Shown in pieces: positions 10,465-46,416 of a stretch of 46,416 nt of DNA. The stretch covers positions 1-46,416 of the forward strand of contig JASKKR010000015.1 in the NCBI GenBank assembly GCA_030154085.1. Reading direction: 5' to 3'. The stretch is from Candidatus Cloacimonadota bacterium. GTDB lineage: Bacteria > Cloacimonadota > Cloacimonadia > Cloacimonadales > Cloacimonadaceae. The stretch's first letter is position 1. Every line of letters begins with the position of its first letter. The translations under genes were made by a program, and so were the position numbers. The notes beneath the pieces are model-generated. The model made no database searches. It saw only the letters and a program-made list of their open reading frames with translations, and had not been told where the DNA came from.

Positions 10465-11724
10465 TCAGATTCGAAGCTCCAGAAACGGCTTGAGTACTTC
10501 CGGAACCTGAAAGCTCCCATCGGCTTTTTGATACTGTTCTAATAACGCGATCATCAGGCGTGGCGTAGCCAGACCAGAGCCATTCAGAGTATGCAGATGG
10601 CGCATCTTACCTTCGGAATCTTTATAGCGAATATTGGCACGGCGAGCCTGAAACTCTCCAAAGTTGCTTACGGAAGACACCTCTAGATATTTTTTGCTCC
10701 CGGCTGCCCAAACCTCGAGATCGTAGGTCTTTTGGCTGGCAAAACTTAGATCACCGGTGCAAAGTGATACAACTCGATAGTGTAGCCCAAATGCCATGAG
10801 GATATCTTCAGCATCTGCCAACATCTCGTCAAGCGCTTGCTCAGAATTTTCTGGTTCGACAAAGCGAACCATCTCTACTTTGTTAAACTGATGCAATCTT
10901 TGCAGTCCGCGGGTATCTTTACCATAGCTTCCTGCTTCTCGTCTAAAACATGGCGTATATGCCACAAATTTCTTAGGCAAATCCTTGTAGGATAAGACCT
11001 CATCAGCATAGATATTGGTTACCGGCACTTCAGCAGTGGGGATTAAAAAGAGGTCATCTTCAGCGATGTGATACATATCGCTTTCCAGCTTGGGTAGCTG
11101 TCCCGTACCGGTCATGGTTTTACGTGTAACTGCCAAGGGTACCATGAGTTCAGTATAACCGTGGTTTTGGATATGATATTCCAGCATGAAATTGATGATG
11201 GCGCGCTCCAACTTGGCTCCTGTTGCAGTATAGATTGGAAATCCACTACCTGATATCTTGGCTCCCCGCGGAAGATCCAAAAAGGAATTTTGTGTTGCGA
11301 TATCCAAATGATCCTTGGGCACAAAATCCATAGTCGGTGGTTGCCCTACATAACGAATTACTTCATTGAAGGATTCATCTTTTCCGATTGGTACATCCGC
11401 CTGCGGTATATTTGGAATCGTGAGCAAAAGCGATTCAACAGTGGCATTGAGTTCTGCCAAATTACTCTGTAAATTCTTGATACGAGATGCTACATCAGCC
11501 ATCTCGGCTAGCTCTTGGGTAGCATCTTCATGGGAGCGTTTCTTTTGGGCAATGGTCTGTGAAACAGCGTTTTGCCTGGCTCTGAGATTGTCGAACTCAT
11601 ATTGCAATTTGCGGCGCTCTTCATCTTTGCCTAACAGCAGATCCAGATCGGCTTTTTCATTTTTATTTTGAATTGCCGTGCGAATTAAATCGGGATTTGT
11701 ACGGATAAATTTGAGATCAATCAT
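10465..11724 (-). CDS. serS: Seryl-tRNA synthetase
   Basis: This class II synthetase charges tRNA-Ser with serine. The 419-residue length is typical. The N-terminal two-helix coiled-coil arm (about 27-105, LDLLLGKDEERRKLQYEFD) binds the tRNA long variable arm. The catalytic core shows motif 2 in CFRREAGSYGKDTRGLQRLH and motif 3 in LNGSGLATPRLMIALLE, plus the serine-site segment IPTAEVPVTN. The start overlaps the tpiA stop by 4 bp (ATGA), so the two are translationally coupled, while a 56-bp gap separates it from the next gene. Confidence 0.98.
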   Translation of the reverse strand: MIDLKFIRTNPDLIRTAIQNKNEKADLDLLLGKDEERRKLQYEFDNLRARQNAVSQTIAQKKRSHEDATQELAEMADVASRIKNLQSNLAELNATVESLLLTIPNIPQADVPIGKDESFNEVIRYVGQPPTMDFVPKDHLDIATQNSFLDLPRGAKISGSGFPIYTATGAKLERAIINFMLEYHIQNHGYTELMVPLAVTRKTMTGTGQLPKLESDMYHIAEDDLFLIPTAEVPVTNIYADEVLSYKDLPKKFVAYTPCFRREAGSYGKDTRGLQRLHQFNKVEMVRFVEPENSEQALDEMLADAEDILMAFGLHYRVVSLCTGDLSFASQKTYDLEVWAAGSKKYLEVSSVSNFGEFQARRANIRYKDSEGKMRHLHTLNGSGLATPRLMIALLEQYQKADGSFQVPEVLKPFLELRI

Positions 11725-12506
11725 GAGTTTCTACCTGCTACTTGATCAAGGGCTATCTCAATCATTTTTAGATACTTATCAGCCTTGAGAGAGGCTCCAC
11801 CTATCAGCCCACCATCGAGGTCTGGCATCTTCAAGAGTCTTTCCAGATTTTCCGGTTTGACACTGCCCCCATATAATATTTTGATACCGTCTGCAAGTTC
11901 ATCTGTATAGCGGATTGCAAGCCATTTACGAATCATACGATGCACTTCCTGAGCCTGTTCGCCACTGGCTGTACGCCCGGTGCCGATTGCCCAGATTGGT
12001 TCATAGGCAATCATCATGTCTGACGGGCTATATAAAGTTACATTTCTTAGGCAGCCTTCCAATTGTTCCATGATCACTCGTTGGGTCTCTCCCTTGTTTC
12101 GCTGATCCAAATTCTCTCCAATGCAAAGGATGGGCTTGATCTCCTCTGTCAAAAGCGCCATGATCTTCTCGCGAATTATCTCGTCACTTTCAGAGTGATA
12201 TGCCCTGCGCTCAGAATGCCCTACAATGCAATATGGGATCGAAAGGGATGCCAACATAGCAGAAGAAACTTCTCCCGTATATGCACCCTCATTATGATTG
12301 CTCACATTTTGAGCAGCAATTTGAACACCTGTGCCTTCGAGCTCTTTCATCATAATTGCCAAAAATGGATATGCAGGAGCTAAAATCGGTAAAACTCCGC
12401 ATAATTCTTTGCCTTTTAGCTGAGCTCGGATCTCAGCACAAAACTCAAGTACTTCATTTAACCCTTTGTACATCTTCCAGTTACCAGCTATCACTATTTC
12501 TCGCAT
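11721..12506 (-). CDS. tpiA: Triose-phosphate isomerase
   Basis: A glycolytic enzyme interconverting dihydroxyacetone phosphate and glyceraldehyde 3-phosphate in the cytoplasm. Key residues are visible: AGNWKM (Asn and Lys of the active site), the catalytic His in VGHSERR, the catalytic Glu in AYEPIWAIGTG with the phosphate-gripping loop after it, and KILYGGSVKPEN. I place the start at the ATG at 12506 (MREIVIAGNWKM) because it has an AGAGGTGA ribosome-binding site and matches the family N-terminus; the longer frame to 12554 adds 16 unrelated residues. It is the first gene of the long minus-strand run, divergent from the Ppx/GppA gene. Confidence 0.98.
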   Translation of the reverse strand: MREIVIAGNWKMYKGLNEVLEFCAEIRAQLKGKELCGVLPILAPAYPFLAIMMKELEGTGVQIAAQNVSNHNEGAYTGEVSSAMLASLSIPYCIVGHSERRAYHSESDEIIREKIMALLTEEIKPILCIGENLDQRNKGETQRVIMEQLEGCLRNVTLYSPSDMMIAYEPIWAIGTGRTASGEQAQEVHRMIRKWLAIRYTDELADGIKILYGGSVKPENLERLLKMPDLDGGLIGGASLKADKYLKMIEIALDQVAGRNS

Positions 12507-12554
12507 TATCACCTCTGACCTTTTTTTACAATCTAGACACCAGTTTGTGATCAA

Positions 12555-12703
12555 GCAAGATAAGTCAAGATTTTTCGAGCAAAGTAATCAGTAGGACGAA
12601 CTTATATCACAATTTTTTTTAAAAATAGATGTACATATTGTTTTTTTTATTTTTTTTGTTACGATATTGTTTAGATTATCCAATATATTAAAAGGGAGGA
12701 TAT
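12555..12703. promoter_or_regulatory. AT-rich divergent promoter region between tpiA and the Ppx/GppA gene
   Basis: About 150 bp containing long T and A runs (around 12609-12660) must hold the promoters for both divergent transcripts. No convincing pair of -35 and -10 boxes stands out on either strand, so the exact promoters are not assigned. Confidence 0.45.
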
Positions 12704-13588
12704 ATGCCTCAAAATTCGGAAACTATTTTGCTTCTTGAATTCGGTTCAAACACCTGCAAGGTAATGCTCTGGGATAGTCACAATGCCCAAGTTTTAGTAG
12801 ACTATCGTTTGCCTTTGCGACTAGCAGCAGAGCTTTCAAAAAGAAAAGAGCTTTCCGAGAATGGGGTCAATAGCATGATATCCGCTATTCGGGACGTGCA
12901 AAATAGATTCAAGGATGCTCGCAAAATCATAGCTATCGGAACTCAGACCTTACGCAAAGCTAAGAATGCTCAGCAGATCGTCCAAAAAATTAAAGAGAAA
13001 TGCGGCGTAACTATCAAGATCTTGAGTCCTCAAGAAGAAGCACAAGCTGCCTTCAAAGGTGTCCAAGCAAGCATCAAGCCCAAAGGGAATACTATCTATT
13101 TTGATATCGGTGGGGGCAGCACGGAAATTATCTTTGCCAAAGATCAACGGGTCTATAGTGCACGCAGTTACGAACTGGGAGCAGTAAGCCTACACCAAAA
13201 ATTTCATTGCACTACCCCAATTTCAAACTGTAACTACTACCATGTTCAACAGGAAATTCTCAGAACTATTAAACCTATCAAGAAAAACATCGAGAACATG
13301 GTGGGTTCTGGTGGTTCTGTAGTAACTTGTGCTATGGTTGCTTTGGGAATCACCCAACCCAATGAAGATTTGATCAATGGACATATAATCCGGCGTTCGG
13401 CGATAATTGGACAAATCCAAAGATATCGTGCCCTGAGTGCCTATGAGATTGCAAAAATACCCGGAATGGATCCCTCCCGAGCAGATATCATCCTCCCGGC
13501 AGCAATGATTATCATCGGAATCATGGATTTATACCAGAAACCCGACTTTATAGCTTCCACAAAAGGTGTGCGTCACGGGATGATATAA
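12704..13588 (+). CDS. Short-form Ppx/GppA phosphatase (exopolyphosphatase / pppGpp phosphohydrolase family)
   Basis: A member of the sugar-kinase/HSP70-like ASKHA fold that hydrolyses polyphosphate or pppGpp. The 294-residue protein carries the phosphate-1 loop LLEFGSNTCKVML and the phosphate-2 loop YFDIGGGSTEIIFA, with VGSGGSVVTCAM later and a typical end of the core domain (IPGMDPSRADIILPAAMII). It lacks the C-terminal HD-like domain of long Ppx, so it corresponds to the short bacterial form. A GGGAGG site precedes the ATG. The gene stands alone and is divergent from tpiA. The substrate cannot be decided from sequence. Confidence 0.9.
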   Translation: MPQNSETILLLEFGSNTCKVMLWDSHNAQVLVDYRLPLRLAAELSKRKELSENGVNSMISAIRDVQNRFKDARKIIAIGTQTLRKAKNAQQIVQKIKEKCGVTIKILSPQEEAQAAFKGVQASIKPKGNTIYFDIGGGSTEIIFAKDQRVYSARSYELGAVSLHQKFHCTTPISNCNYYHVQQEILRTIKPIKKNIENMVGSGGSVVTCAMVALGITQPNEDLINGHIIRRSAIIGQIQRYRALSAYEIAKIPGMDPSRADIILPAAMIIIGIMDLYQKPDFIASTKGVRHGMI

Positions 13589-13642
13589 ATCAAATATTAC
13601 CCTAAAAACAAAGCTCTAAATGCTTGAAAAATATGGGTTCCT

Positions 13643-13712
13643 GATGCCTCCCCCGTTTCTCGCCCATTTGCGGAATGTGCAAGAAACGGGAAAATAAGGA
13701 GTTACGGCATTG
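13643..13712 (+). repeat. Dispersed hairpin repeat, copy A
   Basis: A roughly 70-bp unit that begins GATGCCTCCC and includes a 39-base imperfect palindrome (13652-13690) with outer arms CCCGTTTCTCGC and GCAAGAAACGGG, an inner stem CATTT/GAATG, then AATAAGGAGTTAC. The same unit occurs at 27911-27980 (reverse) and 46347-46416. Copy A is the most diverged of the three in the loop and 3' end. Confidence 0.85.
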
Positions 13713-13913
13713 CTCAAGGCATTCCTGGCGCGCCCAAAATGTTTCACAAGTTTAAATCAAGACGGTGAAAAACTATTGCATATCCTCTGAAATTGGTTCA
13801 TAAGGAAACAAGGTATCGTTTCTTTTGACCTGCTATGAATTCACGTATACCCACTCACTTTCCTAAAAGTTTAGGGCTCAGCCTCATCCCCAGATTACTT
13901 AACTGGCTTAAGT

Positions 13914-13951
13914 TTTATAAAAAGGGTGAAACCGAGATTGGCTTCACCCTT
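13914..13951 (-). terminator. Intrinsic terminator of the SpoVG-like/aminotransferase/kor/epimerase operon
   Basis: On the minus strand, arms AAGGGTGAA and TTCACCCTT (9 bp, perfect) are separated by 12 bases and followed by a TTTTTATA tract. It lies about 50 bp after the stop of the epimerase gene. Confidence 0.8.
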
Positions 13952-14003
13952 GCAATATTATACTATCGCCCTTAAAATCAAGTCATATATTTTGAGGGCA
14001 TAT

Positions 14004-14405
14004 TTAGTGTTTTTCTTTACAGAATTCTATCAAGACTCCGTTGGTTGATTTTGGATGCAGGAAGGCAATATCAGCGCCATGTGCACCAGGACGTGGCACT
14101 TTGTCGATGAGGCGGATACCTTCTTGCTCAGAATATTCCAAAGCAGCCGGAAGATCATCCACTGCAAAAGCAATATGTTGGATTCCTTCGCCTTTACTCT
14201 CGATGAACTTGGCAATAGGGCTATCATCTGCAGTAGGTTCGAGCAGTTCTATGCGAGTATCTCCCATCGGGAGAAATGCCACCCGTACTTTCTGTGCTGG
14301 TACTTCTTCTATCCCTTCCAGCTTGAAGCCGAGCTTTTCATAGAAAGCGATGCCTTCTTCAAGGTTTTTGACAGCGATGCCGATATGGCTAATGCGTTTT
14401 ACCAT
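14004..14405 (-). CDS. mce: Methylmalonyl-CoA epimerase
   Basis: A vicinal-oxygen-chelate enzyme that interconverts (R)- and (S)-methylmalonyl-CoA in the succinate/propionate pathway. The 133-residue length is standard. Metal ligands and motifs of the family are visible: [19 protein letters not shown] (first His), [11 protein letters not shown] (Glu), [11 protein letters not shown] (second His) and NGVLIEFCK (second Glu). It follows korC by 2 bp and is the last gene before the terminator. Its product feeds the Na+-translocating decarboxylase encoded at 21165-25442, which uses the (S) form. Confidence 0.95.
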
Positions 14406-27808: not shown

Positions 27809-27910
27809 TATGGCTTTTGCTGCGAGCATAATAGTAATTAGGTTAACTTAGCTTGGGCATATTCTCCAGTGGATAAATCATGATCTTCTATCTTCCCAGA
27901 ATCTACTTCA

Positions 27911-27980
27911 CAAAGCTGTAACTCCTTATTTTCTCGTTTCTTGCTCACTTCTCAAATGGGCGAGAAACGGGGGAGGCATC
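27911..27980 (-). repeat. Dispersed hairpin repeat, copy B
   Basis: Reverse-orientation copy of the roughly 70-bp unit seen at 13643 and 46347. The 39-base hairpin spans 27933-27971; one outer-stem position is mismatched relative to the other copies (AACGAG in place of AACGGG). It is nearly identical to copy C through the loop and the GGAGTTACAGCTTTG end. Confidence 0.85.
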
Positions 27981-28292
27981 AAGTGTGTTAGTTTTACAAG
28001 TAGTTAGAGTCCTATTTTTGTAAGATTATGCAGTGGGCATCTTCTCATCTATGGGCTAATATCACTTTGCCTGATATCTACGACTTGAGATGTATTAGCT
28101 TGGAATGAGATTTTATCCTATCACTTTTGACACATCCCCTTACACTGCGGCTGGCTGAACCTATATCATGTTGTATAGCTATTGGTTACAATTTGCCAGC
28201 CGAGGCTTTACGCATAATTTTATGAATAGCGGTTATTTCTATAAATAGCGTTGAGCCAAATAAAGTCACAGCTGGCAGACAAATAAAAGTAG

Positions 28293-32751: not shown

Positions 32752-34185
32752 CTAAAATCTTGTGTTTAATTCCACTCGTAGACCTTCAAAGGGAGCTACA
32801 TAGCGGCAAATGCCATTACGGCAGACCTTCCCTCCGGATTCCTTACCGGCAAAGAGGGTGAGATTGGTGTGTTCAAACAGAGGATATTTAGCTTCAATAT
32901 TGGGCATATACTCCACGTTAGAGGAATTTTCCCACCAGCTACTAACGGTCAAGGATAACGCAAGCTTTTTGATGCTAAAATCAGCCTGCAACATTGGTTC
33001 ATAGTGGCTGTTTGTGTTCTGCCCCTGCTGTTTTTCAACTGTCTTGAACTCCCCAGTGAGCTGCAGTGGACGTCCATTTACGGTAAAATGCGCCACAAGA
33101 GTGGGGTAGAATTCTTTCTGCCAGGTGTGAGCAAGATCGTCCACCTTTTCAATATGCGACCACGAGAGCTGGTATAAATTTGTATCTTGATAAACGTCCA
33201 TAGCTAAGTGAAGGTCATTCATCTTCCGGTCTCTGGAATCATCCCAAGCTTCCGCGTAATCGGCATTCAGATAGATATCATCCATCAGTTTATATCCGGA
33301 GCGAATCTGCCAGCCTTCTTCGTCTAAACCGCTAGCAAGAACATCAGAAAGAGTCTCTCCATGATAATTTGCCAAAGGTAGATCTTGTAGGCGGAAAGAG
33401 AAGTCATCATAGCGCTTGTAGGCGCCGCCTATGCTGAGATCTCCCCACAGATAATCTGCATTTAGATATATGGCAGAGCCGTTTATGTCGCTTGCCCCCT
33501 GCACATGGTATTTTTTGCTAAGCGCAAACTCGGCGTAGGAATCCAGATTGCCTTGCGTAAAGATAGCGCGGGTCGCAAAGACATCTCGGAAGCTGTAATG
33601 TCCAAAGGCTTCCAGATTGCGATATCCCATTGCCGATGCTCCGAGGCGAAGCCCCTGCCACACAGGATATTGAATGTCCGAGCCATAAGCTAGATCATAG
33701 CGACCGGCGTAATCCTCACTCTCAATTGCGCCATAGATTGCCTTAAACTGCAGTTTATCCTCATATTTGAGAAGAAAGCTTTCCAAGCGATGATCTTCAT
33801 CAAATTCCAGATCTTCATAGCTGCGGAAGCTGATACCTTGACCGAAAGTTTCGCTAGTTGTTCCCACATGGATACTAAAAGCATTTTTGGCGTATTCTGC
33901 ATAAAGCTCTTCCCAGGCAACTGAGAGCCGGTTTGCATCTAATTCGTCCAAAAGTTCGGATTCTTGGTTGTTATAGCGAGGAAGATCGGCATTAAATTTC
34001 ATTCCGAAGCGGAAATCCTGGTACCCTATATTGAAACCAAAGCTATTTCGGAAATATGTATGAAGAGAATCCGACACAGTTCGGTAGACAAATTGGGTTT
34101 CATTGAGTCCATTAATCTGCAAGTTATTTTGTCCAAGGAGCACCACAGACATCAATGCTAAAAGGATGCTGAGCCTTAGTTTCAT
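32752..34185 (-). CDS. DUF6029-like outer-membrane beta-barrel protein
   Basis: A 477-residue protein with a signal peptide (MKLRLSILLALMSVVLLGQ) and many amphipathic strands ending in an aromatic residue (final residue Phe, LRVELNTRF), as in outer-membrane barrels. The C-terminal block GGKVCRNGICRYVAPFEG resembles the conserved end of the DUF6029 family found in Bacteroidetes; it contains a Cys pair. The assignment is by pattern, not search. It overlaps the TlpA-like gene by 4 bp, so it is made together with the thiol-redox proteins, suggesting a role in anchoring or exporting them or in a disulfide-containing surface complex. Confidence 0.8.
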   Translation of the reverse strand: MKLRLSILLALMSVVLLGQNNLQINGLNETQFVYRTVSDSLHTYFRNSFGFNIGYQDFRFGMKFNADLPRYNNQESELLDELDANRLSVAWEELYAEYAKNAFSIHVGTTSETFGQGISFRSYEDLEFDEDHRLESFLLKYEDKLQFKAIYGAIESEDYAGRYDLAYGSDIQYPVWQGLRLGASAMGYRNLEAFGHYSFRDVFATRAIFTQGNLDSYAEFALSKKYHVQGASDINGSAIYLNADYLWGDLSIGGAYKRYDDFSFRLQDLPLANYHGETLSDVLASGLDEEGWQIRSGYKLMDDIYLNADYAEAWDDSRDRKMNDLHLAMDVYQDTNLYQLSWSHIEKVDDLAHTWQKEFYPTLVAHFTVNGRPLQLTGEFKTVEKQQGQNTNSHYEPMLQADFSIKKLALSLTVSSWWENSSNVEYMPNIEAKYPLFEHTNLTLFAGKESGGKVCRNGICRYVAPFEGLRVELNTRF

Positions 34186-41380: not shown

Positions 41381-44300
41381 TTATTTTATCATGGTCAATT
41401 TACGGGTTTGATTTAGCTTCCCGGCTCTAAGTCGCAAATAGTAGATGCCAGATGCTACTTCTCGTCCAGAAGCGTCTTTTCCATCCCAGCTCACGGTATG
41501 AATACCGGCAGCCTTAGTCTCGTTTACCAGATCTAACACTTTCTGTCCTTTTAGGTTGTAGATAGCCAAGGTCACTTCCTCTGATTGAGCCAAATAGTAG
41601 CGAATGTTAGTCTTTGGATTGAAGGGATTGGGATAGATGCTTTGTAATTCGCTGTTTGGCATTGGGGCAATCGGATCATCAATGCCTACATTCCCAAGCT
41701 GCCACCAAGATTTGAGATCATCCATCCATTCCAAGCGATCTTCAGCTTCAGTGAGTTGAGAGAAGTCAAAGCTAAAATACATAGTGCGGAAGGATGGGGT
41801 CTCAACCGTTGTAGCATTTACTCCATTATAAAGATAGGCTTGCCCATTATATGGTCCGTCTTCAAAGGAATACACGTAACTTGCACCGATCTCAGGATAT
41901 GGCACTTGATCCACATATGGATCTCCCGCAGCGTCATTTGGAAAGATGCAATCCGGACTATTGGCATAGACTGGATATTCCCGGTTTACCGTGCCGACCG
42001 GAGTGCCGGGAAGAGCAAGGATAGTGCCATATTCATAATTGAGATTATCTGGTCCTCCCAACCCGTTTGTCCCACCTCCAAAACCTGTGGGGACATAGGA
42101 TGTGCGGAAATATCCAGACATCAATTTGCGAATAACACTGGAATTTGGATGTGCATGTTGGCTGCTGGCGAGGTTGTCGGATGCAAACCATAGATTTTTA
42201 GGCTCTGTTTCTGTCCCAAGATCCAAGAAATTGATCAGCTCTTCGGCAAAAGTGTACATCTTATCCGAAGCTGTGCCTGAATTTGCATAGGCGATGATAC
42301 CTTTATATTGAGCTGGAAAGCTGTAGCTGGGATATTCTTCCCAATCATAGATGTCATATGCGATTCCTAACTCTTCCAAGGCTGCTTGATAGGTCGGGAG
42401 TTCGATTCTCTGGTAATCCTGATTTCCGCTATATGCAATGAGAACTTCTGTATCCGCTGTAGGCAGGATCTGGAAACTATAATACTCAGTTGGGGCTGTT
42501 GCCGGCAGACTACCAATATTTCCCTCAGTGTCTTCCGCAGAGAAGTAGTATTTCACCTGAGAGCCTTGAGGCAGAGACGCTACCAAAAAATAATAATCGC
42601 TACCCTCAATGGTGGTCGCCTGAAGTTCTTGCCAGCCACTACCGACATCATAGATCAGCTTAGCATCCAGTGGTAGGGACATATCCGTCATATTGGCCAC
42701 AAACTCCATACTTTCGTCAAAGGTGTTGCCTATAGGTTTGTGCGTAATTATGGGAGTCTGTTCATCTATGCCTGGATAAAAGAGGATCGCCAAGTTGTCG
42801 TGCAAGATGTTTCCTGCCGGCTCTATGCCAATATAACTATTACCCTGGACAATCTCACGCAAATAGGTGAGCCCTGCATTTGCTGCTTCATTTTGGATCG
42901 CGATGGTGGCGCTGAGTCCATTGTCATGTGGGATGCTTGCACCCGTCTGGCTGGTTGCTACAGTGTGATATTGCATCTTGATCTCACCATTTTCATGCAG
43001 AATTACCTGAAACTTCAAAAGGCTGTCTCCTCCGCTCCCAGAGCGGAATCTCAGATTGTCCCATTGAATGATCGCATAACGCTCGGGAGCTGTGCCAAAA
43101 CTCTCAAAATAGATGTTACCGATGCCTTCATCAGCTTCTAGATCATCCCAATATACGGCAATGAGTGCCGGCATCTGGGCATAACCCGGGATGGGATACA
43201 TATAGTTGAACATATTACCATCATTGTCCCAGCCCATTTCAGGATAGGGATTGTACCAACTGCTTTCTGCGAAAAGGATTTCACCGTTTATGTCCACATT
43301 GGCACTGCTATAGTTTTCGCCATAAAAGGGGAAATCAAATCCCAAGGGTATGGGCTCGCTAAAATTGTCGTCTCCAGACCATGACGATACGCCATACATG
43401 ATGGTGGACTGACCCGTCTCGGAGATATCTATCCAATCATACACCGGTCCAGAAGGGGAATTGCTTTCCACAAAGTAATAGCCAAAGTCATCTGGTCCAC
43501 CTTCCATGATGCGATGAAAGACAGTGACAAGAGCCTCATAGATATTGTTTGCCGCATTCCCATCATCCGTAAGAATCTCAAAAACAAATCTTTGTTCGCC
43601 TTCTTGGGTGGGGATATAGGCTTCAGGAAACTCCAACAAGATACTGTCTCCTGCCGGAATGCTGAGCGCGGTATTATATGTATAGCCATATAGTAGATCA
43701 TCCTGCTCGTTGTATACTTGTAGTTCAAGTTCCAGATTATTTTCAAAGCTAATTGCTCCGGAGTTTCCGATCGTGAGGGTGGGGAAAATCTCTAGATTCA
43801 TAAATTCCATGGCTCTGGGAGATGATACATCTATTATATAGAGATCCGATATGGGATCTTCCAGCACATTTATGAGCACTGAGGCATCTACGCTTTGCAT
43901 GGACAACTCATCCAAAAGCGTAAACGTGATCTCTTGACTGCCAATATAATCGATAGCACTAAAACTTACTTCAAATCCATCAATTTCGATTTGGATAAAA
44001 TCATTTTCTTCGACACTGAGTACAGCAGCATCGGGGTCTGTAACGACTATGTATTCTGAAAAATCCTCGACATGAGTTTCGCTGGCAAAGAAGCTGATCT
44101 CTGCGGGTAGATTCAGTTCGGGATCAACCATAGCTTCTTGACCGAGCCGCACATCATCCAATATTACACCATAGGTATCGCATTCCCAGAGGAATCCCAC
44201 GTAGATATTCATCCCAACATAGCTATCTAGCGGCACACTCACTTGCTGATATGTGCTGCCAAAATCAATCTCGTGATGCAGCAGAGTATTAAAGTCATCT

Positions 44301-44644
44301 ATCTGATTGCCAGTAGTGGAGACATACACTTTTATGCTTTCCGTGCCATACCAGGCACGTGTATAGAACTCCAGATTATCGCCAGAATTAATCGACACTT
44401 GTGGCGTTATCAGCCAATCTTCATTTTGATTTGGGTGATAATTGTCAGCAAAAGCGATGTGAGTGCCGCTGTGAGCATAATTGCTGTTTTCCAAGACGCG
44501 CCAGGTCATGCCGTCACCATCGTCATAGTAAATCCAGCCATCGGGAAGAGTGCTGGAACCTTCAAAACCTTCTTCGATATGCCACTGCCCAAAGAGCAGT
44601 ACGGCGCACATCAGAAGGAAAATTGTGCTTAATGTTGTTTTCAT
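41381..44644 (-). CDS. Large secreted surface protein with cleaved-adhesin-like and FlgD-type sorting domains
   Basis: A 1087-residue exported protein. A signal peptide (MKTTLSTIFLLMCAVLLFGQ) is followed by a cleaved-adhesin/MAM-like jelly-roll (EGFEGSSTLPDGWIYYDDGD, NEDWLITPQVSI, about 20-165), Ig- or cadherin-like and CARDB-like repeats (about 170-375), a region like the nidogen-type FYGENYSSANVDINGEILF segment (about 430-620), further beta-rich and helical domains, and a C-terminal FlgD-like/type A sorting domain (SIYPNPFNPKTNIRYYL, LAIYNLKGQKVLDLV, VASGIYYLRLRAGKL). No protease active site is recognisable. It is likely to be at or outside the cell surface. The gene follows the regulator, separated by a duplicated start segment. 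Confidence 0.87.
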   Translation of the reverse strand: MKTTLSTIFLLMCAVLLFGQWHIEEGFEGSSTLPDGWIYYDDGDGMTWRVLENSNYAHSGTHIAFADNYHPNQNEDWLITPQVSINSGDNLEFYTRAWYGTESIKVYVSTTGNQIDDFNTLLHHEIDFGSTYQQVSVPLDSYVGMNIYVGFLWECDTYGVILDDVRLGQEAMVDPELNLPAEISFFASETHVEDFSEYIVVTDPDAAVLSVEENDFIQIEIDGFEVSFSAIDYIGSQEITFTLLDELSMQSVDASVLINVLEDPISDLYIIDVSSPRAMEFMNLEIFPTLTIGNSGAISFENNLELELQVYNEQDDLLYGYTYNTALSIPAGDSILLEFPEAYIPTQEGEQRFVFEILTDDGNAANNIYEALVTVFHRIMEGGPDDFGYYFVESNSPSGPVYDWIDISETGQSTIMYGVSSWSGDDNFSEPIPLGFDFPFYGENYSSANVDINGEILFAESSWYNPYPEMGWDNDGNMFNYMYPIPGYAQMPALIAVYWDDLEADEGIGNIYFESFGTAPERYAIIQWDNLRFRSGSGGDSLLKFQVILHENGEIKMQYHTVATSQTGASIPHDNGLSATIAIQNEAANAGLTYLREIVQGNSYIGIEPAGNILHDNLAILFYPGIDEQTPIITHKPIGNTFDESMEFVANMTDMSLPLDAKLIYDVGSGWQELQATTIEGSDYYFLVASLPQGSQVKYYFSAEDTEGNIGSLPATAPTEYYSFQILPTADTEVLIAYSGNQDYQRIELPTYQAALEELGIAYDIYDWEEYPSYSFPAQYKGIIAYANSGTASDKMYTFAEELINFLDLGTETEPKNLWFASDNLASSQHAHPNSSVIRKLMSGYFRTSYVPTGFGGGTNGLGGPDNLNYEYGTILALPGTPVGTVNREYPVYANSPDCIFPNDAAGDPYVDQVPYPEIGASYVYSFEDGPYNGQAYLYNGVNATTVETPSFRTMYFSFDFSQLTEAEDRLEWMDDLKSWWQLGNVGIDDPIAPMPNSELQSIYPNPFNPKTNIRYYLAQSEEVTLAIYNLKGQKVLDLVNETKAAGIHTVSWDGKDASGREVASGIYYLRLRAGKLNQTRKLTMIK

Positions 44645-44726
44645 CTTATTACCCCTTTTTTTAGTTTTTGTTTTTTTTTACTTTTTTGAGGAAAATTGTG
44701 CTTAATGTTGTTTTCATCTTATTACC
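44616..44726 (-). repeat. Perfect 38-bp direct repeat of the surface-protein start region
   Basis: An identical 38-bp segment occurs at 44616-44653 and 44689-44726, 73 bp apart. Each copy holds the GGTAATAAG leader, the ATG and the first nine codons of the surface-protein signal peptide. The upstream copy abuts the stop codon of the regulator gene at 44727. Confidence 0.9.
44661..44717 (-). other. Possible 18-residue leader ORF created by the start duplication
   Basis: From the upstream duplicated ATG (44715-44717) the frame reads MKTTLSTIFLKKVKKNKN and stops at 44661, 17 bp before the real start codon of the surface protein. It shares the same leader sequence as the real gene, so it may be translated; whether it matters is unknown. 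Confidence 0.3.
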
Positions 44727-46097
44727 TCATGGTTTGCTTATTATTTGTGGATTTTCAAGCTGTAAAAACCACTCAAAGGTTCCTGACACTTTACCACCTA
44801 AGGATTGATTCTCACCCCAATACAAAGAAAGTAAGCCCCGGGATTTTTGTTTGAATGATACATCAATATTTGCCAGTGATACATTGGGATTGGTGCCCAT
44901 CGTAACCAAAGCCACTTTACGCCCGTCTATCCCACCCTGTAAAAGTGCCTTTGCCAAAAGTTGTTCGTTGGTCTCTGCACTAAAATTCTTTACTTCATTG
45001 TTTTGAATCACCAGCTTGGGCTTCATGATAGTTTGTCCATATGCGTATGCCACATCTCCATGAACTTCTCCGTTCATAGTCCCTTCCGCTGGTACAAACA
45101 AGACTTCTCCACCAGGATAATTGATCGTGAAACTCTGATATGGGCTTTCTGTAAATGACCCAGTGTCTGCCACAATTCCTTGGATTATAAATTGTAGCCG
45201 ATAGTCTTTACTTTTGATCTCTATGGACTTCTTGTCCTTGTATTGTTCACATATTGATAGCGTCTCCTGTGCTAAGTATTCATAATCCACATCCAAAGCT
45301 TTCCAAAATTGCAACTCACTTTCTATCGCTTTGTCTGAAAGAGTTTCATGCAACAGTCCGGGCATCATGCCTACTCGAATCTTCTTGTTTCTGATGATCT
45401 CGTTACTGCGAGCAAAATGTCCAACTCTCAGCTTTAGCTTATCGGGATCCAGAAGCTGAATATTGCGCGTCTCGCCATTGAGATTTAGATAAGCATCGTG
45501 GTTTTTAAGAAGACGATTGAAATGTTCATAATCCGCATTGAAAGCTGCTAAAGAATATTCTTCATACTTCTCTCTTAACATCTCAGCGTCTTGATAGATT
45601 AGCGTCGTGCGAATATTATGCCTTCCAGCTTCCAGAAGAATCTTTTCCACTAATGGCATATTATATTTACCGGTCACGATCAAGAGCTTCTGACGGGGTC
45701 TGAGTTTTAGCGACTGCTTAAGAATTTTTGCTGCTATTGAGGAGAGCGAAAGATTGTACTCATTTTGTAAGATAGTTTGAATGACTCTGCGCTCATGAAT
45801 AGTATCCTCACCAATATGCTCTCCTAAAGCAAAATCCAAAATGTAGTTCTTGGCTGTTGCGCGATAGTATATTTCTTTGCTATTATTCGGGACATCTTCC
45901 ACTATCTCGATGAGCTCTTTTTCTAATAGCTGGGTGAGATTGTAATGTACCTTTTGTTTACTCACACCCAAAACCGTGGCAAGCTGCTGGCAGGTAGCCG
46001 CCGAACTTATAAGCTCGCGCAAAATGTTAAACTTGAGCTGATTTGCCAGTTCCATAACCTGGGTATGTTGGTTTATTACTTTAATATTTTTTATCAT
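44727..46097 (-). CDS. HTH regulator fused to a degenerate M29 aminopeptidase-like domain
   Basis: A 456-residue protein. Residues about 15-85 form an ArsR/GntR-like winged helix-turn-helix (FNILRELISSAATCQQLATV, LGVSKQKVHYNLTQLLEKELIE). Residues about 125-450 resemble the aminopeptidase T/M29 fold: RPRQKLLIVTG near the start, INYPGGEVLFVPAEGTMNGEV (Glu331 at the first metal-ligand position), and GTNPNVSLANID and WGENQSLGGKVSGTFEW. The other expected metal ligands are missing: the Glu before GTNPN, the His in the GxxHxAxG strand (here GLLSLYWG) and the HxD after GGK (here FEWF). I infer a DNA-binding regulator whose peptidase-like part senses a ligand. It is followed by the surface-protein gene. 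Confidence 0.8.
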   Translation of the reverse strand: MIKNIKVINQHTQVMELANQLKFNILRELISSAATCQQLATVLGVSKQKVHYNLTQLLEKELIEIVEDVPNNSKEIYYRATAKNYILDFALGEHIGEDTIHERRVIQTILQNEYNLSLSSIAAKILKQSLKLRPRQKLLIVTGKYNMPLVEKILLEAGRHNIRTTLIYQDAEMLREKYEEYSLAAFNADYEHFNRLLKNHDAYLNLNGETRNIQLLDPDKLKLRVGHFARSNEIIRNKKIRVGMMPGLLHETLSDKAIESELQFWKALDVDYEYLAQETLSICEQYKDKKSIEIKSKDYRLQFIIQGIVADTGSFTESPYQSFTINYPGGEVLFVPAEGTMNGEVHGDVAYAYGQTIMKPKLVIQNNEVKNFSAETNEQLLAKALLQGGIDGRKVALVTMGTNPNVSLANIDVSFKQKSRGLLSLYWGENQSLGGKVSGTFEWFLQLENPQIISKP

Positions 46098-46228: not shown

Positions 46229-46346
46229 GATTAATTTTACTATTTTAGCATTATCTCTAATTAAAATACAATGATCCCAACTAAGACTTGGTTTTTTTCG
46301 GACTTTGCTCTTGAACTCCCTAACTGCTTGCAAAAGTAGGGCACTT

Positions 46347-46416
46347 AATGCCTCCCCCGTTTCTCGCCCATTTGAGAAGTGAGCAAGAAACGGGAATATA
46401 AGGAGTTACAGCTTTG
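46347..46416 (+). repeat. Dispersed hairpin repeat, copy C (runs to window end)
   Basis: Same orientation as copy A; the 39-base hairpin spans 46356-46394 with arms CCCGTTTCTCGC and GCAAGAAACGGG. It is almost identical to copy B, and the GGAGTTACAGCTTTG end reaches the last base of the window, so the element may be longer. Confidence 0.85.

Follow-up and report, generated by a model that had tools for sequence, protein, structure and literature searches.

ERIC sequences are known from the Enterobacterales and their relatives, while the matS, SlmA and Noc sites measure 13-20 bp and are not known to be evenly spaced over the whole chromosome. The dispersed repeat analysed here invites comparison with both, and with several other systems besides. 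As they are described in the sources (PMC2229807, PMC10969869), ERIC elements and prokaryotic MITEs resemble it in being imperfect palindromes of ~100-130 bp, intergenic, non-coding and present in ~100 copies; set against those same descriptions, our element stands apart in its hyper-even spacing, its 7-kb exclusion zone, its lack of target duplication, a centre that is better conserved than the ends, and signs of constraint acting in place. REP/BIME sequences, with their RAYT proteins, are likewise dispersed extragenic palindromes (PMC3733652, PMC2817692), and BIME-2 binds gyrase in E. coli (PMC6379681); the genome in question, however, has no Y1 transposase, and the element occurs as single copies and not as clusters, is 116 bp long and has arms that vary independently. 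As with the Noc and SlmA sites (PMC4726725) and with matS, there are many dispersed copies of what looks like a palindromic protein site, independent of orientation, but at 116 bp and with even spacing.

Two further systems bear comparison. Gyrase sites in E. coli consist of a 36-bp centre flanked by two 47-bp arms in which GC is phased at 10.75 bp (PMC6379681), and strong gyrase sites and the E. coli motif (PMC6379681, PMC12324340) resemble our element in a central dyad of ~36-39 bp, a total length of ~130 bp and, less clearly, a phasing of AT/GC content in the arms at 10-11 bp; the known gyrase motif is highly degenerate, whereas in the element many bases are invariant and the arms are asymmetric. 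Cis-immunity of phage Mu, which peaks at around 5 kb and falls off over 5-25 kb (PMC7350765), offers a parallel of another kind, in that exclusion acts over ~5-25 kb around each copy and the genome carries a Mu-like A/B operon; unlike Mu, the element has neither Mu-type ends nor 5-bp duplications, and no link between the operon's transposase and the element was found. In the open-licence literature searched, we came across no repeat described as evenly spaced in this way.

The stretch of DNA from which the analysis started (the 'window') comprises contig C3 in full, 46,416 bases of a 1.95-Mb Cloacimonadota draft genome (42 contigs, 99.75% complete), in which C17 and the short contigs C12, C14 and C18 have a tetranucleotide composition unlike that of C1. 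An initial annotation of the window had described three near-identical copies of a ~70-bp unit, at 13643-13712 (+), 27911-27980 (-) and 46347-46416 (+), two of them between convergent genes. All three copies are present, and the convergent placements are those of copy A, between genes for Ppx/GppA (+) and a glyoxalase (-), and copy B, between a peptidase M3 (+) and a heavy-metal ATPase (-); the nearest named relatives of this peptidase are in Candidatus Cloacimonadota metagenome genomes, at 66-68% identity. The unit itself had been drawn too short: the alignment of copies A and C runs to 97 nt and that of the family to ~116 nt, such that the span originally given for copy B covers the 3' two thirds of the full element (Table 1). 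Copy C reaches the contig end and several other contigs likewise start or stop at a copy, a common effect of repeats. Elsewhere in the window, a 58-nt direct repeat (86%; 44616-44746) extends across the starts of the adjoining genes 41381-44644 and 44727-46097, both on the minus strand; the former encodes a large secreted protein with a C-terminal FlgD-like and Por_Secre_tail sorting domain, which suggests a type IX-like secretion signal in a Cloacimonadota genome.

Table 1. Positions of the three copies of the element, and of their parts, in the window
Feature	Position	Strand	Basis
Copy A, full 116-nt element	13614..13729	+	model R1, 107.9 bits
Copy B, full 116-nt element	27894..28009	-	model R1, 133.5 bits
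Copy C, cut by contig end at model position 99	46318..46416	+	model R1, 115.6 bits, 3' cut
Copy A left half-site, columns 39-56, motif CYCGTTTCTYGCYCAYTT	13652..13669	+	column counts, 115 copies
Copy A right half-site, columns 60-77, CYCGTTTCTYGCYCAYTT motif inverted	13673..13690	-	column counts, 115 copies
Copy B left half-site	27954..27971	-	column counts, 115 copies
Copy B right half-site	27933..27950	+	column counts, 115 copies
Copy C left half-site	46356..46373	+	column counts, 115 copies
Copy C right half-site	46377..46394	-	column counts, 115 copies
Copy A constant 3' arm, columns 78-103	13691..13716	+	column variability

That these three belong to a high-copy, dispersed and intergenic family, as had been surmised, is borne out by ~115 copies in the genome, far more than chance would give. 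A covariance-model search returned ~111 places (E down to ~1e-6) and BLAST 41 (E down to 2e-45), whilst a sequence-only model found the same places as the covariance model and gave better support to the weak copies; the figure of 115 used throughout is a count that includes degenerate copies. Thirty copies align gap-free over 116 nt. Self-BLAST of C1 and of C35 shows the element to be by far the commonest dispersed repeat, and position-weight scans of C1, C35, the window and sixteen further stretches (~660 kb) found no solitary halves or fragments outside the known copies. With genes called by our own ORF and codon-usage script, not by a standard gene finder, no called gene holds a copy and all 99 placeable copies are intergenic. 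Where both neighbours were called (99 copies), 33 copies lie in convergent, 44 in tandem and 22 in divergent gaps, and convergent gaps are over-used (33/99 copies vs 14/95 gaps, p 0.003); the first 50 bp upstream of genes is avoided (1/88), the region behind genes is not (26/110), and orientation with respect to genes is not fixed (24 same and 20 opposite in tandem gaps). Within some groups of copies (C10_12287/C30_20849/C35_36699; C15_263/C33_26561; C35_121902/C9_29977) a flank of 100-170 bp is shared on one side but not on the other, and the match stops at the far end of the element, as though copies had been duplicated together with one flank.

The copies are spaced evenly along the genome. 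The 82 within-contig intervals have a mean of 14.3 kb and an SD of 4.0 kb (CV 0.28), a minimum of 7.0 kb and a maximum of 24.8 kb, these statistics being biased to short gaps because contigs end. When 115 copies were placed uniformly on the real contigs 20,000 times, the CV was ~0.98, with a lowest value of 0.67, and no placement matched the evenness observed; intervals shorter than 7 kb, of which 36 are expected and 21 were seen in the lowest of the simulations, do not occur in the genome. The result persists when placements are limited to the real intergenic gaps of C1, C35 and C3 (p < 1e-4). C4, C6, C17 and C8:1-40645 are stretches of 34-46 kb without a good copy, so the 'lattice' has holes, and without the seven weakest copies the CV is 0.33 and the longest interval 39 kb, but the minimum stays at 7.0 kb; short-range exclusion is therefore the firmer statement. 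Relative orientation of neighbouring copies is random, and a KOPS-like polarity signal was rejected on this account (41 same, 41 opposite). We consider that the even spacing probably reflects either a chromosome-wide architectural function or the footprint of an immunity acting near saturation.

Each copy contains a 39-bp imperfect palindrome, which the initial annotation had read as a hairpin with inner-stem differences that preserve pairing. This is so among the three starting copies, but not in the wider family, where stem positions vary without pairing being kept: over the full set of 115 copies, pairing at the variable stem positions is about what chance predicts, with pairs 49-67, 51-65 and 53-63 forming 52, 48 and 75 times against 52.1, 51.3 and 76.2 by chance, and pair 40-76 mildly associated (79 vs 69 expected). 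RNAalifold detected no compensatory pairs in 30 copies, and compensation and pairing in the hairpin as first proposed are no greater than in shuffles; a search of Rfam gave no match to the element, and to that extent the earlier view that it is not a described one stands. The arms in fact repeat a single degenerate 18-bp motif, CYCGTTTCTYGCYCAYTT, in inverted orientation, and vary almost independently of one another; this motif, or something close to it, is read in columns 39-56 on the left and, after complementing, in columns 77-60 on the right, a centre at column 58 makes 14 of 18 positions complementary where any other centre makes nine at most, and the positions that tolerate change are largely the same in both arms. 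Judged by sequence, an arm motif combined with independent variation is the signature expected of a dimeric double-stranded DNA site.

Variability along the element is a mosaic, in which columns C39, C52, G64, G66, A68-G70, G77, A83, A87 and T89-A91 vary in 0-1% of copies and neighbouring columns (e.g. 49, 51 and 76) in 39-55%; column variability also shows the AAAATAAGGAGTTAC core of the constant 3' arm to be nearly invariant across the family. Among 43 disjoint closest pairs with 135 differences, six fall in conserved columns against 58 expected (p = 2e-24), and in copies that share a flank the divergence is 6.2% for the flank and 3.0% for the core (seven comparisons, a small sample with partly overlapping pairs). 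This constraint on columns and core argues for selection in place, though constraint on the columns could come in part from constrained source copies of a mobile family. Conservation is highest at the centre and fades over several positions at both ends. Beyond the ends, in flanks that are specific to each locus, AT content peaks near columns -7, -18, -28, -40 and -52, a phasing with a period of 11 that holds over ~60 bp of 5' flank (p < 0.0005) and is weaker on the 3' side; AT content is not mirror-symmetric between the arms. Phasing of AT at ~11 bp outside the element suggests that the DNA may be wrapped.

Relatives of the element are patchily distributed within the genus. Model R1 gave one match among eleven congeners, in G011, and as the contig with this sole strong copy (C16) is 100% identical to our genome's own DNA over 3,116 bp it is probably mis-binned; both G011:C16 (L061; DNA, 3,116 bp) and G011:C41 (L231; MuA protein) are 100% identical to the genome studied here, and are probably mis-binned contigs or the result of very recent transfer. 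Sequence-only models, run across the eleven congeners, recovered ~49 diverged copies in G010 (with model R3), a single copy in G009 and nothing convincing in the others; a species-specific burst was rejected, given diverged copies in so distant a congener as G010. In G010 the dyad register is unchanged and the arms are CCCGTYSCTTSCMCGKMC-like, the two half-sites having drifted together, with some positions altered in both arms (e.g. A53 to G). Its density of ~1 per 55 kb is some four times sparser and the 14-kb rhythm is absent, and no intervals fall below 8.9 kb against 5.4 expected (p 0.002, contig sizes being partly assumed); a minimum distance is seen in both genomes, and thus the exclusion is common to two species while the 14-kb mean is not. 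The flank AT signal in G010 is on the 3' side only, with a period of 12 (p 0.009). The neighbourhood of copy B has no synteny in the congeners, no plasmid relatives were found, and no exact match to the core pattern occurs in the named genome contigs or the viral contigs searched. A different dispersed repeat of ~117 nt, seen in G005 (e.g. L091:998-1114, L098:17-133), occurs in all eleven congeners with 3-21 matches, twelve of them identical in G005, and is likely to be an active MITE of the genus; it was rejected as an analogue, since the family extends through the genus and includes identical copies that have probably moved recently. A hairpin repeat family built on GCATTGCTTACCCATTGCTTACC in G020:C1 (e.g. 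33600-33700, 51042-51142, 122404-122504) has half-sites with a faint match to model R3, and is possibly a remote relative of the element.

The initial annotation had offered a REP/MITE-like element or a family of small RNAs, with a linked RAYT gene as something that would support a mobile REP family; dispersal, non-coding character and multiple copies agree with this, the search for RAYT and the RNA pairing do not. A RAYT-driven family is not supported because Y1_Tnp (PF01797) is absent from the genome while five control genomes give matches. Target duplications are missing at the tested boundaries: flanks of 2-10 nt show no excess of matches at any of them, and none was convincing in G010. 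Sharp-ended terminal inverted repeats are not seen either, the ends fading and the outer arms being only vaguely alike. A search for rve did identify an 864-aa Mu-like A protein on C4 at 11465-14059 (PF09299; phrog_310 2.9e-71), with a CI-like repressor before it and a MuB/TniB-like ATPase after it, and a second, partial copy on C31. The operon (C4:9918-15293, L212; C31:1-1401, L229) comprises a CI/S24 repressor, a small ORF, the MuA-like protein and the MuB/TniB-like ATPase, and repeated TGTCCAAGCG words, present upstream of the small ORF and inside it, could serve as operators or as sites for the transposase. Of the eleven congeners, seven carry MuA relatives: G003, G004 (a short fragment), G005, G006, G009, G010 and G011. 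We found no link between this operon and the element.

It is against this background that a non-autonomous MITE, moved by a transposase with target immunity of the Mu, Tn7 or Tn3 type, has to be weighed; its copies would repel insertions over several kb, and a near-saturated genome would show even spacing as a by-product. The element is dispersed, non-coding, multi-copy and patchy between species, as MITEs are, and has no copy within several kb of another (7.0 kb in its own genome, 8.9 kb in G010), as target immunity would predict. Random insertion with ~11-kb exclusion near saturation fits the intervals (KS p 0.92, in one of several settings), the exclusion zone and not the mean spacing is what the genome has in common with the sparser G010, some copies share one flank, the genome encodes a Mu-like A, a MuB/TniB-like ATPase and a CI-like repressor, and the 5-25 kb of Mu cis-immunity matches the exclusion distances (PMC7350765). 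Set against this are the absence of target duplication at every tested boundary; the conserved centre and fading ends, which are the opposite of transposon ends; the failure to find solitary ends, fragments or an autonomous copy in the stretches scanned; the avoidance of conserved columns by recent changes; the lack of element-like sequence around the MuA locus across the first 20 kb of C4; and G005, which has a 91% identical MuA and yet no element. We regard this reading as the leading rival, somewhat less likely than the protein site favoured below.

The other explanations fare worse. Were the family neutral, recombination between copies might have removed close pairs and left the rest evenly spaced, and close pairs are indeed absent, with seven of the eight shortest intervals lying between inverted copies, which deletion would spare; but same- and opposite-orientation intervals are alike overall (p 0.24), inverted pairs closer than 7 kb are missing as well, and 116-bp copies with ~10% differences generally recombine poorly, making this highly improbable. 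Even less credit is due to transcribed hairpins, be they small RNAs, terminators or mRNA stabilisers: each copy can be folded and convergent gaps are over-used, yet compensatory changes do not exceed chance, Rfam offers no match, 22 copies sit in divergent gaps with gene orientation unfixed, and an RNA function leaves the even spacing without a reason. Least probable of all are packaging or transfer sites of a gene transfer agent or phage-like system, about one headful apart; the spacing of the element falls within the head-size range of some gene transfer agents, and packaging sites commonly have bent, phased DNA, but the exact core pattern is absent from viral contigs.

The data ask for three things: a process by which copies stay at a distance from one another, a site recognised in double-stranded DNA, and constraint that acts on individual copies. 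We favour, with a probability of roughly 0.45, an in-place double-stranded binding site for a DNA-wrapping protein with an architectural/topological role. We envisage a site of ~116 bp on which a sequence-specific protein would bind as a dimer to the two inverted 18-bp half-sites, with the DNA on either side wrapping around the protein complex; each copy would work where it stands and be held there by selection, and the copies would divide the chromosome into stretches of ~14 kb. Their role would most likely be that of anchors or topology-control points, either as a loop/supercoil-domain boundary or as a gyrase-type entry site, and gyrase is the leading named candidate, by analogy, because E. 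coli gyrase sites show a similar centre, arms and phasing. Against such a protein site stand the patchiness of the family (most congeners have no copy and one has a single copy), the fact that G010 keeps only the minimum distance and not the 14-kb rhythm, the regions of 34-46 kb without a copy (C4, C6, C17 and most of C8), and, with regard to gyrase, invariant bases unlike its degenerate motif and arms that are asymmetric in AT. The protein-site and target-immune mobile readings could both be true, if a mobile element has been domesticated. More tentatively, we speculate that the copies form a near-regular lattice of ~115 large, selected sites, one per ~14-kb domain, with a recognition sequence that co-evolves with its binding protein within the genus.

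Dispersed intergenic repeats are usually regarded as mobile debris, scattered at random, and from 46 kb alone neither the even spacing, nor the 7-kb exclusion zone, nor the dyad of two identical half-sites could be seen. Under either reading, architectural function or immunity footprint, the family would record cleanly, in a natural genome, a process for which laboratory work is normally the sole source; were the function architectural, the copies would predict domain boundaries at base-pair coordinates, and if they reflect immunity, their spacing would measure the range of that immunity in nature.
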